From the IMG/VR virus record IMGVR_UViG_3300034198_004795, positions 1 to 24,449 of that record: a stretch of DNA of 24,449 nucleotides, one strand, 5' to 3'. The position numbers and the translations under genes were made by a program. Below are positions 12,304 through 23,785 of this stretch, piece after piece. This stretch comes from a virus. The stretch's first letter is position 1; every line of letters begins with the position of its first letter. The notes beneath the pieces were generated by a model, which saw only the letters and a program-made list of their open reading frames with translations, made no database searches and was not told the origin of the DNA.

Positions 12304-13027
12304 AGCACAGCACCCGCCATTCGTGACTGCCGTCAGTGAATTGCACCTTGCGAAGCGATCCAGCACCGGCCTGCACAAAAGCATCGCAACCAAAGCAGCC
12401 GCGGTTCCATTTCGTCGGCCCAAGATGTTTGAACTGCAACGTCTCTCGCACTTGGCGCGCCATTGCCTGACGGTTGAGTTCCTGCTGCTCCTGCCACGCA
12501 CGCTGCCGCTCTGCTGCTTCGGCTTCCCACTGCAGACGCTTTTGTTCGCGTTCCTTAGCCTTTTGCAAGCCAAGCCAGTTCACGAATGGATGCTGCCGAC
12601 TGAACCGGATCGAGTCCGCGCACATCTCAATGGACAACGAAGACGTGCCGCCAACGGTGCCAACGACCAGAACAGATTCGCCAGTCAGCTCGGCCAAGCG
12701 CTTTGGTTTCCAAAGCTCCTGCACCAAGAGGTTTTGAAGGTCTTTGGAGGTGACGTTCTCATGTCGAATCTCACCAGAAAAGCGCTCGCCATGCCTGCGC
12801 GTGACGCCAAGCGCATCTCGCAAGTCATACAGAAATTGCTGCGGCTTAGCCTCAACCCATCGCGGCAACTGGAGCGCAAGATCGGCGCTGTCAATCGTGA
12901 AGTCCGGCAGGTAACGCACCTGAGGGCCACCCGGCAGCACCACCGGTCGCTCGTAGTCCCAGTTCACGCCATGCTCGTCAAGCTCCTGGGCAACGAGCAC
13001 TTCAAGATGCGACCTAAACGCCGGCAT
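12275..13027 (-). CDS. Antisense PD-(D/E)XK endonuclease with zinc-ribbon tail, moron-like
   Basis: The 250-residue product begins MPAFRSHLEVLVAQELDEHGVNWDYERP, then RYLPDFTI and LPRWVEAKP: the Glu, Asp and E-x-K pattern of a PD-(D/E)XK fold like that of T7 endonuclease I-type proteins. A middle section (about 95-140) is helical and strand-like, then a long Gln/Arg/Glu helix (KAKEREQKRLQWEAEAAERQ), and last a C-x-x-C pair set (RGCFGCDAF, VLCSNCCH) that suggests a zinc ribbon. It is the only leftward gene between the helicase and the primase, with its own possible promoter at 13054-13082. It looks like an inserted independent unit. It could be a resolvase-like or anti-host nuclease. Confidence 0.75.
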   Translation of the reverse strand: MPAFRSHLEVLVAQELDEHGVNWDYERPVVLPGGPQVRYLPDFTIDSADLALQLPRWVEAKPQQFLYDLRDALGVTRRHGERFSGEIRHENVTSKDLQNLLVQELWKPKRLAELTGESVLVVGTVGGTSSLSIEMCADSIRFSRQHPFVNWLGLQKAKEREQKRLQWEAEAAERQRAWQEQQELNRQAMARQVRETLQFKHLGPTKWNRGCFGCDAFVQAGAGSLRKVQFTDGSHEWRVLCSNCCHQQQS

Positions 13028-13030
13028 GGG

Positions 13031-13058
13031 TTGGCAGATGCAGATTTCACGCTACGAT
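13031..13058 (+). promoter_or_regulatory. Sigma70-like promoter for RHH/primase operon
   Basis: TTGGCA (13031-13036) and TACGAT (13053-13058) are 16 bp apart, and the RHH gene starts 27 nt further on. This is the best sigma70-like site in the window. It overlaps the -10 of a possible leftward promoter (TTGCGC at 13077-13082, 17 bp, TATCGT at 13054-13059 on the minus strand) for the 12275-13027 nuclease. Confidence 0.5.
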
Positions 13059-13082
13059 AACCCCAGCGATTCACCAGCGCAA
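13054..13082 (-). promoter_or_regulatory. Possible divergent promoter for the antisense nuclease
   Basis: On the minus strand TTGCGC (13077-13082) is 17 bp from TATCGT (13054-13059). It would start transcription about 20 nt before ATG 13027. The two divergent -10 boxes share ACGAT(A), so use of one should block the other. Confidence 0.38.
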
Positions 13083-13085
13083 CCC

Positions 13086-13241
13086 ATGCACACCCAGCGC
13101 CAGCAGCGCCGCACCATCACGCTCGACCTTCCGCAAGATCAAATCGCCTGGCTTGATCGCCAAGCGGGCCAGTTGATGTCGCGGTCGGCCTACGTTCGTC
13201 AACTGATCGCTGATGCCATGCAACAGCAGGGCCAACGCTGA
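13086..13241 (+). CDS. Ribbon-helix-helix (CopG/Arc-like) regulator
   Basis: The 51-residue product from ATG 13086 has the complete RHH plan: strand RTITLDLPQ, helix DQIAWLDRQAGQ, turn LMSRSAY and helix VRQLIADAMQQQG. The R-S-x-x-VRQLI motif is the usual dimer core. A start at 13026 is ruled out by the promoter at 13031-13058. Its TGA overlaps the ATG of the primase-helicase (TGATG), so the two are coupled. It could regulate its own overlapping divergent promoters or bind the GTTAC-type repeats after the primase gene. Confidence 0.78.
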   Translation: MHTQRQQRRTITLDLPQDQIAWLDRQAGQLMSRSAYVRQLIADAMQQQGQR

Positions 13242-15742
13242 TGCCGCGCATCTTTGAACTCGCCAACGGCCACTGGCCGGCAATCCTTGGCGCGCTTGCT
13301 GGACTGACCACCGAGCAGCTCACCGACAAGCATCAACCATGCCCGCTATGCGGTGGCAAGGATCGCTACCGCTTTGATGATCAGGACGGCACCGGCTCAT
13401 GGTTCTGCAATCAATGCGGTGGCCCATCCGAAACAGGCGGCGGCGGGTCAGGCATCGAGTTGCTCATGCGCCGCACTGGCTGGACATTCAAGGAAGCCGC
13501 CCAACGCGTTGAGCAGCACTTAGGCGTCACCCCGCAGCGGCCAGAGCCGCCAATCAAGGGCGCCGAATCGGTCTGGCGTTACAGCGACACCTTCATGGTC
13601 TGCCGCTTCCCCGGCAAGAAGATCCGCCCCCTTTGGTGGTCTGGCAGCCGCTGGGAGTGGAAGGCGCCACCAGCGCCTCGCCCACTGCTCAACCTCGACC
13701 AGCTTCGCGCCCGCACCGGCACCGTGCTGATCGTTGAAGGCGAGAAGGCAGCTGATGCCGCAACCAAGCTTTACCCCAAGGCCGTGGTCACAACATGGCC
13801 ATCAGGCTGCAAGGCCATCGACAAGGCCAACTGGTCACCCCTGCAAGGTCGCCGCGTCATCCTTTGGCCTGATGCTGATCAGCCTGGCCAGCAGGCCATG
13901 GATCAGCTTGCGCAACGGCTGCTGCGCCTGCCCGTCGATCGCGTGCAGATGGTCACACCACCAGCCGACGCGCCTGAAGGTTGGGACCTAGCCGATGCCA
14001 CTTGGACACAAGAAGAGGCCGCGGCCTACGTCAAAACCAACATCTCCGCACCGCTGGAGCTGGATACCGAGCAGCCTGACCTTGAACCTGAGCGCGAGCC
14101 CGAGCCCGAGCTGCCTGACCTCGACGCCAACGCGCATTTCACCTGCCTCGGCTTCGACGGTGACGCTTACTACTACCGACCCCACAGCACTGGGCAGGTG
14201 TTGCGCCTGTCGCGCTCAGCGCACACCTCGACCAACCTCGTCGCCCTAGCCGCATCACTTGAGTACTGGGAGCAGCTTGCACCTGGTGGCCGCGGCGGCG
14301 TTGACTGGACCAAGGCAGCCGCAACCCTGTTTGCAATCGGTGCTGAACGCGGCGTTTACAACCCTGACCGCATCCGTGGCCGCGGCGCTTGGTGGGATGA
14401 AAAGCGCACCATCTTGCACCTCGGGGATCGGTTGATCGTTGACGGTCAAACTCACATGGTGCTCAAGCCATTTGACAGCCGGTATCTCTACCAGCGCATG
14501 AGTGAGCTGCATGGCCCCGGCAAGGAAAAGCCTCTCAGCGATGCCGAAGCGTTTGAGATCCTTGAGCTGGCCAACCGCTTCCATTGGGAGGTGCCCGCAT
14601 CCGGCCTGCTGCTGGCTGGCTGGGTCACCCTTGCACCGATCTGTGGTGCTCTCCCATGGCGTCCACACGCATGGCTCACCGCAGCAGCCGGTTCAGGTAA
14701 ATCCGCCATCCTTGATCGCTACGTCGCGCCGTTGCTGGCTGACATGGGGTTAATCGTTGCCGGCAACACCACCGAGGCCGGCCTGCGCCAGACCCTGCGA
14801 TGTGATGCCCTCCCCGTTGTGTTCGACGAGGCCGAATCAAACGAGAAGGCCGATCAGGTGCGGATGCAAAACATCCTTGCCCTTGCTCGTGTCGCCAGCT
14901 CAGAATCCCACGCAACCATGCTCAAGGGCAGCCCCGGCGGTGATGTGACGCGTTTCAACATCCGCTCAATGTTCCTGATGTCTTCCATTGCCACTGCTCT
15001 TAAGCAAGGCGCCGATCGCAGCCGCTTTGCGCAGCTCACCCTGCGCTCACCGACCGAGCTGCCCAAGGAAGAACGCATCAAGCACTGGGAAGAGCTGGAC
15101 CGCGACCTTGATCGCCTTGTCACCCGTGAAGCCAGCCTGCGCTTGATCGCTCGCACCGTTTCGCTAATCCCCACCATCCGCCAATCCGTGCGCGTATTCA
15201 GCCGTGTTGCCGCCGAGCATTTTGACAGTCAACGACTTGGTGATCAGTACGGAACCCTGCTGGCCGGCGCGTGGGCGCTGCAGTCAAGCCAAGTGCCGAC
15301 CGATGCTGAAGCCAGCCAGTTGATCACTAGCAACGACTGGGAGCCCTACAGCCAAACTACCGAGGTGCCCGATGAGCAGCGTTGCATTCAACGCATCCTT
15401 CAGCATCAGGTGCGCGTTGAGGCTGACGGCAAGACGATCTCTCGCACGCTGGGCGAATTGGTCGAAATTGCTGGCCATCGCGCTACCGATTTCGACATCA
15501 CGCCTAGCAGGGCGCAAGACGTGCTTGGCCGCCATGGACTCAAGGTCGATTCTGATCAAGGTCAGCTGCTGGTCAGTAACACCGCCGAGGCGCTGGCCAG
15601 CATCCTCAAGGAGACCTCGTGGTCTCACAGCTGGGCCACAGTGCTGAGCCGGTTACATGGCGCTACCAAGGCCGGTGCTGTTCGGTTTCGGGGTGCCGGC
15701 GCTGTTTCCAGGGCCGTAGCGTTACAGATTTCGGGGTTGTAA
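13241..15742 (+). CDS. Primase-helicase with zinc ribbon, TOPRIM and P-loop ATPase domains
   Basis: This 833-residue protein combines a primase and a ring-type ATPase. Residues 30-62 hold a zinc ribbon (CPLCGGKDRYRF, WFCNQCGG). Residues 160-245 are a TOPRIM fold with VEGEKAAD (165-172) and PDADQPGQQA (210-219), giving the Glu and Asp-x-Asp metal set. A Pro/Glu/Asp linker (about 272-296) follows. The C-terminal half has Walker A TAAAGSGKS (480-488) and Walker B LPVVFDE (524-530), then an R-rich region with ATALKQGADRSRFAQL. It should prime and unwind at the fork, like other phage primase-helicases. No DNA polymerase lies in the window. The 3' end has two GTTAC repeats that join the noncoding repeat block. 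Confidence 0.9.
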   Translation: MPRIFELANGHWPAILGALAGLTTEQLTDKHQPCPLCGGKDRYRFDDQDGTGSWFCNQCGGPSETGGGGSGIELLMRRTGWTFKEAAQRVEQHLGVTPQRPEPPIKGAESVWRYSDTFMVCRFPGKKIRPLWWSGSRWEWKAPPAPRPLLNLDQLRARTGTVLIVEGEKAADAATKLYPKAVVTTWPSGCKAIDKANWSPLQGRRVILWPDADQPGQQAMDQLAQRLLRLPVDRVQMVTPPADAPEGWDLADATWTQEEAAAYVKTNISAPLELDTEQPDLEPEREPEPELPDLDANAHFTCLGFDGDAYYYRPHSTGQVLRLSRSAHTSTNLVALAASLEYWEQLAPGGRGGVDWTKAAATLFAIGAERGVYNPDRIRGRGAWWDEKRTILHLGDRLIVDGQTHMVLKPFDSRYLYQRMSELHGPGKEKPLSDAEAFEILELANRFHWEVPASGLLLAGWVTLAPICGALPWRPHAWLTAAAGSGKSAILDRYVAPLLADMGLIVAGNTTEAGLRQTLRCDALPVVFDEAESNEKADQVRMQNILALARVASSESHATMLKGSPGGDVTRFNIRSMFLMSSIATALKQGADRSRFAQLTLRSPTELPKEERIKHWEELDRDLDRLVTREASLRLIARTVSLIPTIRQSVRVFSRVAAEHFDSQRLGDQYGTLLAGAWALQSSQVPTDAEASQLITSNDWEPYSQTTEVPDEQRCIQRILQHQVRVEADGKTISRTLGELVEIAGHRATDFDITPSRAQDVLGRHGLKVDSDQGQLLVSNTAEALASILKETSWSHSWATVLSRLHGATKAGAVRFRGAGAVSRAVALQISGL

Positions 15743-15744
15743 CG

Positions 15745-15776
15745 GCGCCTGTTACGGCTGAAAACCGTTCCGGCGC
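15745..15776 (+). other. Stem-loop after the primase gene
   Basis: GCGCC (15745-15749) pairs with GGCGC (15772-15776), and ACGG (15754-15757) with CCGT (15765-15768). It starts three bases after the primase stop. No T-run follows directly, so it is a weak terminator candidate or a processing hairpin. Confidence 0.35.
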
Positions 15777-15828
15777 AAAGGATTAGGGCATCCTGTAACG
15801 GTGTAACGCTTTTTGGCCAGAACATAGC

Positions 15829-15848
15829 CTCTCTCTCACACACACACA
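15829..15848. repeat. CT/CA dinucleotide run in noncoding region
   Basis: A (CT)n run passes directly into (CA)6 at about 15829-15848, between the GTTAC repeats and the A+T palindrome. Such purine/pyrimidine tracts can melt or bend. In this phage it may be part of the origin-like region, but it could also be simple slippage sequence. Confidence 0.5.
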
Positions 15849-15874
15849 GAAAGGGAAGGACACCCTCTCAAACC

Positions 15875-15906
15875 CCTCTAATAAATAAACTTTATTTAGA
15901 AAGAGG
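15875..15906. repeat. A+T palindrome, possible DNA-unwinding element
   Basis: TAAATAAA (15882-15889), a central C, and TTTATTTA (15891-15898) form a perfect inverted repeat; CCTCT (15875-15879) and AGAGG (15902-15906) extend it with small mismatches between. It is the most A+T-rich spot in this GC-rich window and lies in the centre of the GTTAC repeat cluster. It could be an unwinding element, a cruciform or a transcript hairpin. Confidence 0.55.
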
Positions 15907-16053
15907 TGTTACAACGTTACAGAGGGGAGCAGACCTGCTGAGCTGGAAGGGATCTCGGGTGTAACGGCTCCTGTTACACCGCGTTACACCTGCAACGCTC
16001 GATCTCACCCCTTCTTGCTGGCTTGCGCCCATCCCCAGCCCTACCCTGACCAC

Positions 16054-16722
16054 ATGGCAACCATCACCCTCGACATCAAGTCAGAGCTGCCCAAGGCCAT
16101 CCGGTGGACGGATGCCATGACCAAGCAGCTCCCCTTTGCCATCAGCCAGGCGCTCAATAGCACTGGCTTCGACATCCGCGGCTCACTCAAGGGCGCATCC
16201 CGCCAATACTTCAATAACCCCACCCCGTTCATCCAGAACGCATGGCAGGTCGACAAGAGCACCAAGCGCAGCCTCGCGGTCACGATCTTTCCTGAGGCCA
16301 AGCGAGAGCCTTACCTCAGGGCCAACATCACGGGCGGTAGGCGTGGCACTAAGCCATTCGAGGCGCGCCTGCTTGCACAGGCCACAGGCGCCATCCCAAG
16401 CGGCAGCAAGCTGATCCCCGCAGCAATCAAGCGCAACGCTGCAGGCAACGTGTCTCTGGCCGCTATCAAGCGCATATCAGGGCAGGTTGGGCAGCTTGGG
16501 CGTAATGGGGTATTTGTCGGCACGCCACCCGGTGGCAACAAGCCTCCCGGCGTTTATCAGCGCGCTGCTCGTGGTCGCCTCAGGCCCCTGTTCATTGCAG
16601 TGCCATCAGCGAACTATCGGCCGATCTTCCCCATCAACGACATCGGCCAGAAGGTGGTCGAGAGGCGCTTTGGTTCATACCTGCGCAGCTCCTTGGAGCG
16701 TGCGCTGGCCTCGGCTCGTTAA
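16054..16722 (+). CDS. Tail-completion/minor tail protein Z-like phage protein
   Basis: From ATG 16054 the protein has 222 residues. It is basic and follows the plan of a phage family of unknown fine function: LPFAISQALNSTGFDIR near the start, PTPFIQNAWQVDKSTKRSLAVTIFPEA, YLRANITGGRRGTKPFEARLL, IPSGSKLIPAAIKRNAAGN, VFVGTPPGG---PPGVYQRAARGRLRPLFI and a Tyr/Phe/Arg C-terminus. These features recall proteins sometimes annotated as minor tail protein Z or neck/tail-completion proteins. Its place before the terminase, apart from the tail genes, is odd. No Shine-Dalgarno is seen. The call is from pattern and is moderate at best. Confidence 0.55.
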   Translation: MATITLDIKSELPKAIRWTDAMTKQLPFAISQALNSTGFDIRGSLKGASRQYFNNPTPFIQNAWQVDKSTKRSLAVTIFPEAKREPYLRANITGGRRGTKPFEARLLAQATGAIPSGSKLIPAAIKRNAAGNVSLAAIKRISGQVGQLGRNGVFVGTPPGGNKPPGVYQRAARGRLRPLFIAVPSANYRPIFPINDIGQKVVERRFGSYLRSSLERALASAR

Positions 16723-16925
16723 GGCCCCCCCTGCCAGGCATTTTTGGGTCCTCCCTGCCAGATTTTTCGGGGGTGATCGCAGACCGCAGAAAAGCGCTAG
16801 CGCCAGCGGTTAATCCCCGTAAACCCTTGCGCCGCAAGGGATCTCGGCGAATCTTGCTTGAAGATACCCCGAACGGGTTTAGCGCGGTTTAGCATCAGTT
16901 AACTAAGCCTAGCTTTTGCTTAATT
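16723..16925. other. 203-bp noncoding region upstream of terminase, possible cos or pac site
   Basis: This gap holds a direct repeat with CCCTGCCAG and a T-run (16729-16746 and 16753-16766), a perfect 10-bp palindrome GCGCTAGCGC (16794-16803), a hairpin CCCTTGC/GCAAGGG with a 3-nt loop (16824-16840), and two copies of GGTTTAGC (16876-16883, 16886-16893). Lambda-type phages that use Nu1/GpA terminases carry their packaging site just upstream of the small-subunit gene. The region is therefore the best place for a cos or pac site; that is inferred from position. Confidence 0.4.
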
Positions 16926-19893: not shown

Positions 19894-21452
19894 TGGGACT
19901 GCGCACGCGGCTATTTAAGGCGATGGGTTTTGAGCCGACGCGACCCCAGCGCCGGGCGTATCAAGGCGCACGGGTGAGCCGGCTGACTGCCGACTGGGTG
20001 ACAAGCGGCACCAGCGCCGATAGCGAGATCAAGTCCAGCTTCAAGGCATTGCGCAACCGTGCGCGGCAACTGGTGCGCGACAACGATTACGCGCGGCAGG
20101 CAGTGCGCGCGATCCAGAACAACGTGATCGGGCACGGGATCAAGCATCAGTCGCAGGTGCGGATGCTGCGCGGCGGGCGACTGGATGAGGCGATCAATGG
20201 GCAGATCCACGAGCAATGGGAGCGGTGGATGCACAAGAGCCGCTGCGATGTGAGCGGGCTTCTGGGTTTCCATGACATCGAGCGGCTGCTGGCGCGGAGC
20301 ATGGCCGAATCGGGCGAGGTGTTCGTGCGGATGATCCGTAGGCCGTTTGGCGATTCGCGGGTGCCGTTCGCGTTGCAGATCCTTGAGGCTGATTACCTGA
20401 TTGACGATGACGTGCCGCAAGCAGCGGACGGCAACACGGTTCGGATGGGCATCGAGGTGGACGGCTACCTGCGGCCGCAGGCTTACCACTTCTACGCAAA
20501 CCACCCGGGTGACACCTATGCAGGCAACCCGCGGACCAATGGCCGGCGGATCCGGGTTCCTGCTGATGAGGTGATCCATCTGTTCCTGCCGGAGCGGCCA
20601 GGCCAGACCAGGGGCGTCACATGGTTTGCATCAGCGCTGATGCGGCTCCACATGCTGCAGGGCTACGAAGAAGCGGAAGTGGTGCGCGCCCGGGCCAGCA
20701 GCGCGTTGATGGGCTTCATCCAATCGCCTGAGGGCGAGTTGATTGGCGATGAGATCTACGAAGGCCAGCGCGTGAGTGAGTTCACTCCAGGCGTGTTCAA
20801 GTATCTGGCGCCAGGCGAAAGCGTGACGGTGCCCGATCTGAATGCACCTGACGGTCAGCTGGAGCCGTTCACGCGGTCCATGCTGCGCGCTGTGGCGGCT
20901 GGTGTTGGGGTGAGTTTTGAAAGCATCAGCAAGAACTTCAGCGAGAGCAACTACAGCAGCAGCCGGTTGAGCCTGCTCGAGGAACGCGACACCTATCGGG
21001 TGCTCCAGCGCTCGATGATCGAAAACTTCCACCAGCCGGTGTTTGAAGCATGGCTTGAGATGGCGGTGCTGAGCGGTGCGCTGAATCTGCCGGGCTACGA
21101 AACCAACCCCGACCGCTACCGGGCTAGCCGGTGGATCCCAAGGAGCTGGGAGTGGGTCGATCCACAGCGTGAAGTGGAGGCGTATAAGACGGCCGTGCGG
21201 TGTGGCTTCAAAACGCTGGGCCAGGTGATCAGCGAGCAAGGCGGCGATCTGGATGATGTGCTGATCGCACGTCAGGCCGAGCTGGCGATGCTGGATGAGA
21301 TGGGCATTGTTACGGATAGCGATCCGAGCGAAGTTGCTGACAGCGGTGCGGTTCACCCGATGCCAGTGCCTGCCACTGAGACGCCAGTAGAAGAGGAGGA
21401 GTATGAGGAGCTGTCAGTCCTCGAGGATCCGCTCGAGGATGAAGAGGACTGA
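19893..21452 (+). CDS. Portal protein, lambda gpB family
   Basis: The 519-residue protein has the lambda portal features: ADSEIKSSFKALRNRARQLVRDNDYARQAVRAIQNNVIGHGI near the start, a tail-type GFHDIERLLARSMAESGEVFVRM segment, LQILEADYLIDDDVPQA, IRVPADEVIHLFLPERPGQTRGVTWFASALMRLHMLQGYEEAEVVRARASSALMGFI, and YSSSRLSLLEERDTYRVLQRSMIENF. It forms the dodecameric ring through which DNA enters. The C-terminus is strongly acidic and rich in Pro and Glu, a probable flexible tail. It starts on the last base of the connector stop and ends with the same TGATG coupling to the capsid polyprotein. Confidence 0.95.
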   Translation: MGLRTRLFKAMGFEPTRPQRRAYQGARVSRLTADWVTSGTSADSEIKSSFKALRNRARQLVRDNDYARQAVRAIQNNVIGHGIKHQSQVRMLRGGRLDEAINGQIHEQWERWMHKSRCDVSGLLGFHDIERLLARSMAESGEVFVRMIRRPFGDSRVPFALQILEADYLIDDDVPQAADGNTVRMGIEVDGYLRPQAYHFYANHPGDTYAGNPRTNGRRIRVPADEVIHLFLPERPGQTRGVTWFASALMRLHMLQGYEEAEVVRARASSALMGFIQSPEGELIGDEIYEGQRVSEFTPGVFKYLAPGESVTVPDLNAPDGQLEPFTRSMLRAVAAGVGVSFESISKNFSESNYSSSRLSLLEERDTYRVLQRSMIENFHQPVFEAWLEMAVLSGALNLPGYETNPDRYRASRWIPRSWEWVDPQREVEAYKTAVRCGFKTLGQVISEQGGDLDDVLIARQAELAMLDEMGIVTDSDPSEVADSGAVHPMPVPATETPVEEEEYEELSVLEDPLEDEED

Positions 21453-23785
21453 TGGCCGGTTTGAACACCGATAGAATCAAAGAACTACAAGACAGAAGCG
21501 CGATGGAGATGGAGCGCCCCTACCCGAACGAACACGCCGCACGATTGAAAGATCCGGCTCAGTACGATTCGCTGCGCCGCGTCAACGATGAAGGCGGCAC
21601 CGGCGTTGATTTCATCTATGGCGTGAAGGAAGGCGAGAGCGAGCTGCAGGCAATCCGGTTCCGCAGTTCGGTTTACACCGCAACCGAGGCCCGCACCTGG
21701 TTGGCCGAGCATGACTTTGAGCCGATCGAGTTTGAGGAGGCAACTGGTGACGGCGAAGCTGAGCGCGCCGCACCGAATGAGTTAACCGAAGGCGACTTTG
21801 TGCGCTGGGATTCGAGCGGCGGCACTGCCCAGGGCAGGATCGAGCACGTCATGCGCGAAGGCACGCTTGGCGTCCCTGGCACTGAGTTCAGCATCGACGC
21901 AACAGCAGAAGACCCTGCTGCGCTGATCCGCATCTATCGCGAAGGCGAAGAGGGATGGGAAGCAACCGAGACGATGGTGGGCCATAAGTTTTCGACGCTG
22001 AGCAAGATCGATGCACTGCGGGCCATGCCTGGCATCGGCAAATATCAGCGCGCTGAACTGACCACTTTCGACGAAGTGGAGGACCGCACTTATGAGTTCC
22101 CATTTAGCTCTGAGTTCCCTGTCGCGCGGTACTTCGGCAACGAGATCCTGAGCCATGAGGCGAATGCAGCTGATCTCAGCCGCTTGAACGATGGCGCGCC
22201 GCTGCTGTTTAATCACAACCCTGATCGTGTGATCGGCGTGGTTGAACAGGCGAGGATCGATAGCAAAGGACGGCGCGGCTATGCGCGGGTGCGGTTCAGC
22301 CGCAACCCGTTTGCTCAGGAAGTCCTGAGTGATGTGAAGGACGGCGTTCTACGGAATGTGTCCTTTGGCTACTCCATCGACAGAATGGAGGAGCGCGGCA
22401 GTGGTGACTTCGTTGCTACTGCTTGGGCACCTTACGAGGTGTCGATCGTCAGCGTTCCCGCTGACAAAACTGTGGGCATTGGCCGCGCGTTGACGCCCAC
22501 GGACCCTGCTGCTTCGGCAGCACCATCCCCTGATCCCCTTCCTTCAATGGAATCCACCACCCCCGATCTGGCCGTGGTGCGGGCCGAAGCCGCCGAGGCT
22601 GAGCGCTCCCGCATCAATGAGATCTCCGCCTTGTGCGACAAGCACAACATGGGCGATCTGGGCCGTCAGCTGGTCGAGTCTGGTCGTTCAATCGACGAGG
22701 CCCGTGCCGCTGTTCTCGACAAAATGAACATTCAACAGGAGCCTGTGACCATGAGCGCCGCCGACATCGGCATGAGCGAGAAGGAGAGCCGTAATTTCTC
22801 CTTCCTGCGTGCCATCAACTATCTCTCCAACCCGACCGATCGTTCGGCCCGTGAGGCTGCAGCGTTCGAGATCGAAGCATCCGAGGCTGCTGCTTCTAAG
22901 CTCGGCCGTCAGTCCCGTGGCATCACGATCCCCCAGGACGTGCTGCGTCGTGACCTGAACGTTGGCGCGGCTACGGCTGGCGGCAACCTGGTCGAGACCA
23001 TGCTTGACGCTGGCAGCTTCATCGACCTGCTGCGCAATGCTTCGGCCCTGGATCAAGCTGGCGCCACCGTGCTGACCGGCCTGACCGGCAACGTCGCCAT
23101 CCCCCGTCAGTCGGGTGCTGCCACCGCCTACTGGGTGGCTGAGAGCGGCGCTCCTACCGAGTCGCAGCAAACTGTGGATCAGGTCAGCCTGACCCCCAAG
23201 ACGGTGGCCGCGTTCACCGACTACAGCCGCCGCCTGATGATCCAATCGTCGATCGACGTGGAGAACATGGTCCGGGGCGATCTGGCCCGCGTGCTGGCGC
23301 TCAAGATCGACCTGGCTGGTCTGTATGGCACCGGCAGCAACAGCGAGCCCCTCGGCCTGAAGCTGACCACCGGCATCGGCACCGAGAACTTCGCCGCTGC
23401 TGCCCCGACCTTCGAGGAAGTGGTGGCACTTGAGAGCGACGTGGCAACCGCCAACGCGCTGCTGGGCAACCCTGTCTACCTGATGAACGCTGCTATGCGC
23501 GGCAGCCTCAAGACCACCAAGAAGGACGCCGGTTCCGGCATGTTCATCATGGATGGCAACGAGGTGAACGGCTATCGCGGCGTGCTGTCCAACCAAGTGG
23601 CATCTGGCGATCTGTGGTTCGGCAACTTCGCCGACCTGATCATCGGCTACTTCAGCGGACTCGACATCATGGTCGACCCCTATAGCAACAGCACCAGCGG
23701 CACCGTTCGCGTGGTTGCGATGCAGGACGTGGACATCGCTGTCCGTCATCCTGAGTCCTTCAGCCGCGGCAACGATTCCCTCTGA
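21452..23785 (+). CDS. Prohead protease - major capsid polyprotein with Tudor-like insert
   Basis: The 777-residue protein has four parts. Residues 1-100 form a module with PYPNEHAARLKDPAQYDSLRR and LQAIRFRSSVYTATEARTWL, seen from memory in phage capsid or protease leaders. Residues 110-185 resemble a Tudor/KOW-like DUF2945 domain (GDFVRWDSSGGTAQGRIEHV, VGHKFSTLSKI). Residues 195-348 are an HK97-type prohead protease with H255 in LLFNHNP and S304 in NVSFGYSID. A charged linker (366-430) looks like a scaffolding or delta domain. Residues 434-777 are an HK97-fold major capsid protein (TAGGNLVETMLDAGSFIDLLRNASAL, YWVAESGAPTESQQT, LKIDLAGLYGTGS). An internal ATG at 22751 with AGGAG nine bases upstream could make capsid alone. 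Confidence 0.93.
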   Translation: MAGLNTDRIKELQDRSAMEMERPYPNEHAARLKDPAQYDSLRRVNDEGGTGVDFIYGVKEGESELQAIRFRSSVYTATEARTWLAEHDFEPIEFEEATGDGEAERAAPNELTEGDFVRWDSSGGTAQGRIEHVMREGTLGVPGTEFSIDATAEDPAALIRIYREGEEGWEATETMVGHKFSTLSKIDALRAMPGIGKYQRAELTTFDEVEDRTYEFPFSSEFPVARYFGNEILSHEANAADLSRLNDGAPLLFNHNPDRVIGVVEQARIDSKGRRGYARVRFSRNPFAQEVLSDVKDGVLRNVSFGYSIDRMEERGSGDFVATAWAPYEVSIVSVPADKTVGIGRALTPTDPAASAAPSPDPLPSMESTTPDLAVVRAEAAEAERSRINEISALCDKHNMGDLGRQLVESGRSIDEARAAVLDKMNIQQEPVTMSAADIGMSEKESRNFSFLRAINYLSNPTDRSAREAAAFEIEASEAAASKLGRQSRGITIPQDVLRRDLNVGAATAGGNLVETMLDAGSFIDLLRNASALDQAGATVLTGLTGNVAIPRQSGAATAYWVAESGAPTESQQTVDQVSLTPKTVAAFTDYSRRLMIQSSIDVENMVRGDLARVLALKIDLAGLYGTGSNSEPLGLKLTTGIGTENFAAAAPTFEEVVALESDVATANALLGNPVYLMNAAMRGSLKTTKKDAGSGMFIMDGNEVNGYRGVLSNQVASGDLWFGNFADLIIGYFSGLDIMVDPYSNSTSGTVRVVAMQDVDIAVRHPESFSRGNDSL
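22737..22753 (+). promoter_or_regulatory. Internal ribosome-binding site and start for the capsid part
   Basis: AGGAG at 22737-22741 lies nine bases before ATG 22751, which is in frame with the polyprotein. Initiation here would give a 344-residue protein starting MSAADIGMSEKESRNF, close to the usual size of a processed HK97-like capsid protein. This is one of the strongest Shine-Dalgarno sites in a window where most starts lack one. Confidence 0.55.

Follow-up and report, generated by a model that had tools for sequence, protein, structure and literature searches.

An array of short repeats (iterons) lies directly after the gene for a fused primase-helicase in IMG/VR record IMGVR_UViG_3300034198_004795 (positions 1 to 24,449), a 24,449-base virus record without a host genome that is referred to here, at its full length, as the window. 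The array is probably a phage replication origin, recognized by the neighboring primase-helicase through that protein's C-terminal domain; judged from sequence comparison, the probability of this reading is about 0.88. The observations behind it are the repeats, their conservation in relatives, the concerted switching of their core, the association of that core with the C-terminal domain, and the correlation between protein residue 815 and iteron base 6. The joint switching of repeat and domain could not be seen from a single sequence. The features of the window that belong to the proposed origin are as follows.

13241..15742, plus strand: primase-helicase gene, 833 amino acids, with a zinc ribbon, a Toprim-like segment, a P-loop ATPase and a C-terminal domain (PF08273, phrog_35358)
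15386..15739, plus strand: coding part of the C-terminal domain (residues 716-833), the proposed iteron reader (from AlphaFold2 and divergence between iteron-type siblings)
15652..15656, plus strand: GTTAC repeat within the primase gene (pentamer search)
15683..15685, plus strand: codon of Arg815, which ends the first strand (model residues 114-120) of the C-terminal beta-hairpin
15721..15725, plus strand: iteron CGTTACA within the 3' end of the primase gene
15739..15743, minus strand: iteron over the primase stop codon
15751..15755, plus strand: iteron, the final one ahead of the left 39-bp spacer
15756..15794, no strand: left spacer, an imperfect palindrome in relatives and weak in the window
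15795..15799, minus strand: iteron
15803..15807, minus strand: iteron, part of GGTGTAAC at 15800-15807
15809..15904, no strand: middle tract, a CT/CA run with an A+T-rich end, candidate DNA unwinding element
15908..15912, plus strand: iteron
15916..15920, plus strand: iteron CGTTACA
15921..15960, no strand: right spacer, the mirror counterpart of the left spacer
15961..15965, minus strand: iteron, part of GGTGTAAC at 15958-15965
15973..15977, plus strand: iteron (GTTACACC)
15983..15987, plus strand: iteron CGTTACA (GTTACACC)

The pentamers GTTAC and GTAAC occur 11 times within positions 15652-15987 (336 bp), in agreement with a sequence-only reading of this DNA that had reported 11 in about 340 bp. 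Dinucleotide shuffles of the window (n = 300) gave at most 3 per 340 bp, and the densest 340-bp stretch outside the array has 2. The whole window contains 26 of these pentamers, against 10.7 +/- 2.9 expected. Exact GGTGTAAC octamers are found at 15800 and 15958 on the plus strand and at 15973 and 15983 on the minus strand; as the same reading had described, 15958 and 15973 form an inverted pair, and 15973 and 15983 a direct pair with a 10-bp offset. The 7-bp CGTTACA describes the repeat unit better than GGTGTAAC does. Three repeats, not the two first counted, lie in or reach into the primase gene (15652, 15721, and 15739-15743), and the last of these covers the stop codon TAA at 15740-15742. 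The A+T content is 47% over the entire array span, 59% in the middle tract, and 75% at 15870-15905. The array contains both a CT/CA run and a TAAATAAA-C-TTTATTTA palindrome. No match to a known RNA family was found.

The array is a property of the family. Relatives of the primase were collected, and 140 distinct members had enough sequence; they are related to one another, and the counts that follow are hence many but not independent. At least five copies of one core are present within the 390 bp around and after the primase stop in 136 of the 140, compared to 0.6% of 2,800 random stretches drawn from the relatives' own loci. At least seven copies are found in 112 relatives and in none of the control stretches. 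Conservation of the repeats alongside the primase, the point on which the sequence-only reading had staked its proposal, is thus borne out by these 136 loci. Repeat spacing and orientation are largely kept though the cores differ. The iterons of the window lie at -22, -4, 8, 52, 60, 165, 173, 218, 230, and 240 from the primase stop, and those of relative L193, with core GTTAG, at -22, -4, 7, 39, 47, 159, 167, 222, 234, and 245. Read outward from the middle tract, the repeat orientations on its two sides are largely mirror images. This tract has 52.8% A+T, compared to 38.0% in the rest of the loci, and is the richer of the two in 136 of 140. The A+T palindrome to which the first reading had pointed is present in the window, but an exact copy occurs in only 1 of 140 loci, that of the window itself, and it was therefore rejected as a conserved element. 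The relatives show the layout that this reading had preferred, with iterons and an unwinding tract next to the replication gene, and so support it.

The spacers at 15756-15794 and 15921-15960 have counterparts in many relatives with the imperfect palindrome RARAYC..YTGC...GCAR..GRTYT, in opposite orientations. Palindrome scores exceed those of shuffled sequence on the left (6.46 vs 3.93) and slightly on the right (4.59 vs 3.91). The spacer of L034 (10610-10644) forms a strong hairpin (z -5.6), and folding gave no stable hairpin in the window's own spacers. Such hairpins are at most a possible general ssi-like priming site.

The core of the repeat, called by a simple rule, is not fixed across relatives and can be GTTAC, GTAAC, GTCAC, GTGAG, GTAAG, GTTAG, GTCCC, or GTTCC. 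A reduced set of 114 contains GTTAC (32), GTAAC (31), GTTAG (14), GTCAC (12), GTGAG (10), GTAAG (7), GTCCC (4), GTTCC (3), and GTTGG (1); L091 is GTSAC by simple count, yet behaves as GTWAC. Within one phage the repeats are usually all of a single core, and 22 changes of repeat type are placed on the primase tree. One such change is seen between L042 and L068, whose primases are 93.6% identical. L042 has 12 GTTAGG and 0 GTGAGG, and L068 has 12 GTGAGG and 0 GTTAGG; the same T-to-G change is present in all 12 iterons, while the spacer stretches and downstream DNA stay alike.

Mixed cases are also observed. After its primase, L076 carries a GTGAG array with GTTAC repeats in the right half only, possibly a recombinant or an intermediate between two iteron types. 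Several of these phage-like elements can sit in the assembly of a single Synechococcus, Cyanobium, or Vulcanococcus strain, e.g., in the assemblies Cruz-8D1 (L098, L100, and L111) and Clear-D1 (L108 and L110). The assembly of Synechococcus sp. HJ21-Hayes has four (L085, L087, L103, and L116), of which three share one iteron type. Strict exclusion of equal types within one host is not supported by this case, where three CGTTACA elements are found with one CGTTCCA element.

Which protein reads the repeats can be approached through the neighboring genes. The ribbon-helix-helix (RHH) protein encoded at 13026-13241, ahead of the primase, had been named in the sequence-only reading as a possible binder, and the array could be a multi-site operator for the late or replication operon, bound by this protein or by another repressor. 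RHH proteins bind arrays of short sites, the gene has a repressor match (phrog_4738, E 4e-5), and the array stands ahead of structural genes. However, under the same repeats the gene before the primase encodes one of several kinds of RHH protein, an unrelated protein of ~90 amino acids, or a nuclease, or is missing altogether. Since many relatives with these repeats lack the RHH protein or have another gene in its place, it is excluded as the general reader. No promoter-like site was found in 15500-16200, and the repeats vary in step with the primase's C-terminal domain, which makes an operator of this type very unlikely. The upstream gene is not conserved, and the primase is therefore the constant partner of the array.

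Divergence within the primase is concentrated in the C-terminal domain when the iteron type differs. L243 and L248, of the same type, have 55 differences, of which 1 is in residues 721-833; L245 and L243, of different types, have 83, of which 39 are in this segment. L042 and L046 have 1 of 22 differences in the C-terminal domain, compared to 21 of 54 for L042 and L068, which differ in type. Among pairs that are 3-6% divergent elsewhere, divergence of the domain is 0.026 within types and 0.17 between types; the ten between-type pairs in this range count as one event because all involve L068, and the contrast fades at larger distances. This strong co-variation points to the C-terminal domain of the primase-helicase as the proposed reader of the repeats.

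A single residue tracks one base of the repeat. The identity of residue 815 follows iteron base 6 in 133 of 134 sequences. With C at base 6, residue 815 is Arg in 94 of 95; with G, it is Tyr, Trp, His, or Ser in 39 of 39. Contact between Arg and the guanine opposite C is common. All nine independent pairs, taken from a tree of residues 1-700, agree with the rule. In a scan of all 833 columns, residue 815 has the highest normalized mutual information for base 6 (0.60; next 0.32). Leave-one-out accuracy is 0.98 for residue 815, followed by A827 (0.93) and V822 (0.90), both in the same hairpin. Bases 6-7 also correlate with residue 815, Trp being found with GG and Tyr with GA.

The association of domain and iterons could be linkage only: both would travel on one recombination block, and the iterons would be read by a different protein. 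The domain does lie next to the array, and between L245 and either L243 or L248 homology stops inside the C-terminal domain and restarts at the next gene. This explanation is nonetheless improbable: residue 815 follows base 6 through nine of nine independent changes and outperforms the other 832 columns, and L042 and L068 differ by one base per iteron, twelve times. The arrays of Acinetobacter phage Acjo_20 and Bordetella phage PBb002 are not adjacent downstream, yet Arg is found with C; this last argument is weak because all unlinked cases are C-type.

These two are among the distant phages outside the original set that were found after the 815/base 6 pattern. The primase of Bdellovibrio phage phi1422 has 34.5% identity over the matched part, with 12 GTTACC directly after the gene and Arg. 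Acjo_20 has 14 GTTAC in the gap before the primase gene. L272 and L299 have GTTAC clusters and Arg. Single-phage queries with Acjo_20 and phi1422 gave few further loci. Whole-genome scans, which for Aeromonas phage ST4 covered 49 kb of 90.6 kb, gave the leading clusters of three more phages. These are CGTAAC in PBb002 (L345 22228), GTTAC in Serratia phage MQ-4 (L346 41324; 17 in 500 bp), and GCTACC in ST4 (L348 about 8932, which is position ~13.9 kb of the ST4 record). Each begins within or next to an intergenic gap of the annotation, and the three clusters are candidate origins away from the primase gene.

The position of the arrays bears on another explanation, in which the array, though bound by the C-terminal domain, would serve chiefly as an operator of the primase-helicase itself or as a copy-control or partition site, with the true origin elsewhere. 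Origin-binding proteins often autoregulate, which speaks for it. In the window, however, the array follows the gene, whereas an autoregulatory operator would usually precede it, and the densest arrays of Acjo_20, PBb002, MQ-4, and ST4 are in gene-poor gaps away from the 3' end of the gene. The A+T-raised tract between iteron groups in 136 of 140 loci is the origin layout of the Staphylococcus aureus pathogenicity islands (SaPIs). No second comparable iteron cluster was found in the window (at most 2 per 340 bp), which is a fragment. A role mainly in self-regulation, copy control, or partition is therefore quite unlikely.

The primase-helicase matches PF08273 (E 5e-16) and phrog_35358 DNA primase (E 7.5e-141), and its Toprim match is weak. 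The AlphaFold2 model of residues 696-833 has a predicted local distance difference test score (pLDDT) of 90 and a predicted template modeling score (pTM) of 0.82. Helices and a pair of strands resembling a wing are followed by two short helices and by the C-terminal beta-hairpin (114-120 and 127-134 in model numbering), in which residue 815 is model residue 120. The full-length model (pTM 0.38) has an unreliable ATPase part and was not used. Weak structure matches include, among those listed, the winged-helix DNA-binding domains of 5vfx, IRF3, and HSF1; the origin-binding domain of phage P4 is absent among the 50 of 107 matches listed. A viral structure library gave matches to proteins of Synechococcus phage S-CAM8 and to H9C0J7 (838 amino acids, the length of the phi1422 primase), and a weak fold match to one DUF927 phage protein (E 0.045). 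No sequence relatives of the domain were found in the PDB.

Several points weigh against an origin read by this domain. The sign test on the nine pairs gives p 0.004, a value that is only indicative because the pattern was seen by eye ahead of the column scan and three motif calls (L243, L195, and L008) were set by hand. L069, with His and C, violates the 815/base 6 rule. Lys is found with GTTAC in L289 and with C in MQ-4 and ST4; the wider rule would therefore be a basic residue with C. Pararheinheimera phage KLER1-1 is ambiguous, with GCTTACA just after the primase that fits in one reading only. No iteron array was found near the primase gene in ZRG1, Dolphis, and Mwe-JY13. The domain model has no match to solved structures at E <= 0.001. 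Cumulative GC skew, suggested earlier as a check, gives no independent support for the origin; in Synechococcus phage S-H1, record MK105819, the minimum is at 32.9 kb and the array at 17.65-17.94 kb.

In the proposed mechanism, the C-terminal domain of the primase-helicase would bind every 7-bp iteron (CGTTACA in the window). Contacts would include the C-terminal beta-hairpin, where Arg815 may read the G opposite iteron base 6. Two helicase assemblies would be loaded at the two iteron groups, which are largely mirror images, and would face the A+T/dinucleotide tract between them. The assemblies would melt the middle tract, and the fused primase would prime both strands, which would make origin activity bidirectional. 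Being neighbors, the reader domain and array could be swapped as one cassette or could drift jointly, and many origin specificities may have arisen in this way within one phage family.

A broader proposal is that the C-terminal hairpin carries a readable recognition code, with residue 815 for base 6, Trp/GG and Tyr/GA at bases 6-7, and perhaps residue 813 for base 4. At least eight specificities, each excluding the others, may have come from this code through repeated resetting, in which either a cassette was exchanged or about 12 iterons changed in concert, possibly under pressure against cross-firing or origin-targeting competitors. It is tentative, its chances being put at slightly less than even.

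Comparable modules are known. In SaPIs, the C-terminal domain of Rep is described as recognizing an iteron origin directly downstream of its own gene (PMC7581432). The likeness to the SaPI origin, and to SCCmec Cch2 with its putative origin, is in the helicase initiator and the short iterons directly downstream of its gene; in 136 of 140 relatives the array is downstream of the proposed initiator helicase gene, and the iterons lie on both sides of an A+T-raised tract. The window protein differs in being a fused primase and helicase with a zinc ribbon and Toprim-like part. It has no DUF927 or D5_N at the Pfam cut-off, and DUF5906 is found below the cut-off only (best E 0.0037). The host is also different, being picocyanobacterial, and one family has many iteron types with a base-level correlate.

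Swapped origins fail in the phage-inducible chromosomal island-like elements (PLEs) of Vibrio cholerae, and the co-variation of the window family matches these modular replicons (PMC8263062). PLE RepA, however, is a RepA_N protein without a predicted helicase or primase and reads its origin via the RepA_N domain, while the window family would do so via the C-terminal domain. Two PLE origin classes are described, compared to at least eight cores in the window family. The alpha protein of phage P4 has a C-terminal origin-binding domain, and the P4 ori has short iterons with an A+T-rich tract. P4 replication also uses a second site, crr, unlike the window (a fragment), where none was found. Alpha is a fused primase-helicase (PMC7145576), as is the window protein.

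For geminivirus Rep, the title of Arguello-Astorga and Ruiz-Medrano 2001 (cited in PMC6669703) indicates that amino acid-base pairs were proposed by comparison. The likeness, as far as that title and its citation go, is the matching of variable iterons to a variable initiator part (iteron-related domain). Geminivirus Rep differs in being a rolling-circle initiator of plant viruses. It is not known to be related to the window primase-helicase. In the archaeal plasmid pRN1, a repressor and a primase-helicase share an operon, and the putative origin follows the replication gene (PMC4234260). Unlike the window array, this origin is a 100-nt stem-loop and not iterons, and the pRN1 primase is of the archaeo-eukaryotic type. 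By analogy, the window system appears to work like the initiator-iteron modules of SaPI, PLE, and P4 type. It is not filed as a SaPI or P4 replicon because its helicase family and domain fold are unmatched.

Upstream of the primase-helicase are genes for RecT, exonuclease VIII, a helicase, and the RHH-type regulator; downstream are those for a minor tail protein and a gpA-type terminase. A candidate cos site, GGGTCCTCCC...CGGGGGTGATCGCAGAC, is located at 16746-16786. It resembles the contig ends of many relatives (L003, L005, L008, L011, L019, L020, L030, L039, and L072), and the contig end of L008 maps to window position 16784. Since this candidate is ~760 bp downstream of the array, the iterons could be terminase recognition (cosB-like) repeats. 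This is extremely unlikely, as the array stays with the primase when the terminase is another one (Terminase_6 type in L085, gpA type in the window), and in Acjo_20 it lies before the primase. At 21452-23785, the prohead protease and major capsid protein are apparently fused in one 777-amino-acid frame (PF04586 and PF05065).

The nearest isolate is phage S-H1, and relatives within cellular genomes are mostly in Cyanobium, Synechococcus, and Vulcanococcus; the array-bearing virus is taken to be a phage of picocyanobacteria. No published origin for this phage family was found in the open-licence literature, where the match for iterons in cyanophages was a study of a Vibrio system. The array is a candidate, testable origin for the family and for distant Bdellovibrio, Acinetobacter, Serratia, Bordetella, and Aeromonas phages. 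The relatives supply many natural cases in which initiator and dozen-copy array have altered their specificity jointly, with a correlate as fine as a single residue and a single base, and this makes the concerted switching of a protein and many sites directly testable. If the reading is true, these phages would possess a set of origins that probably exclude one another and that a rule could predict.
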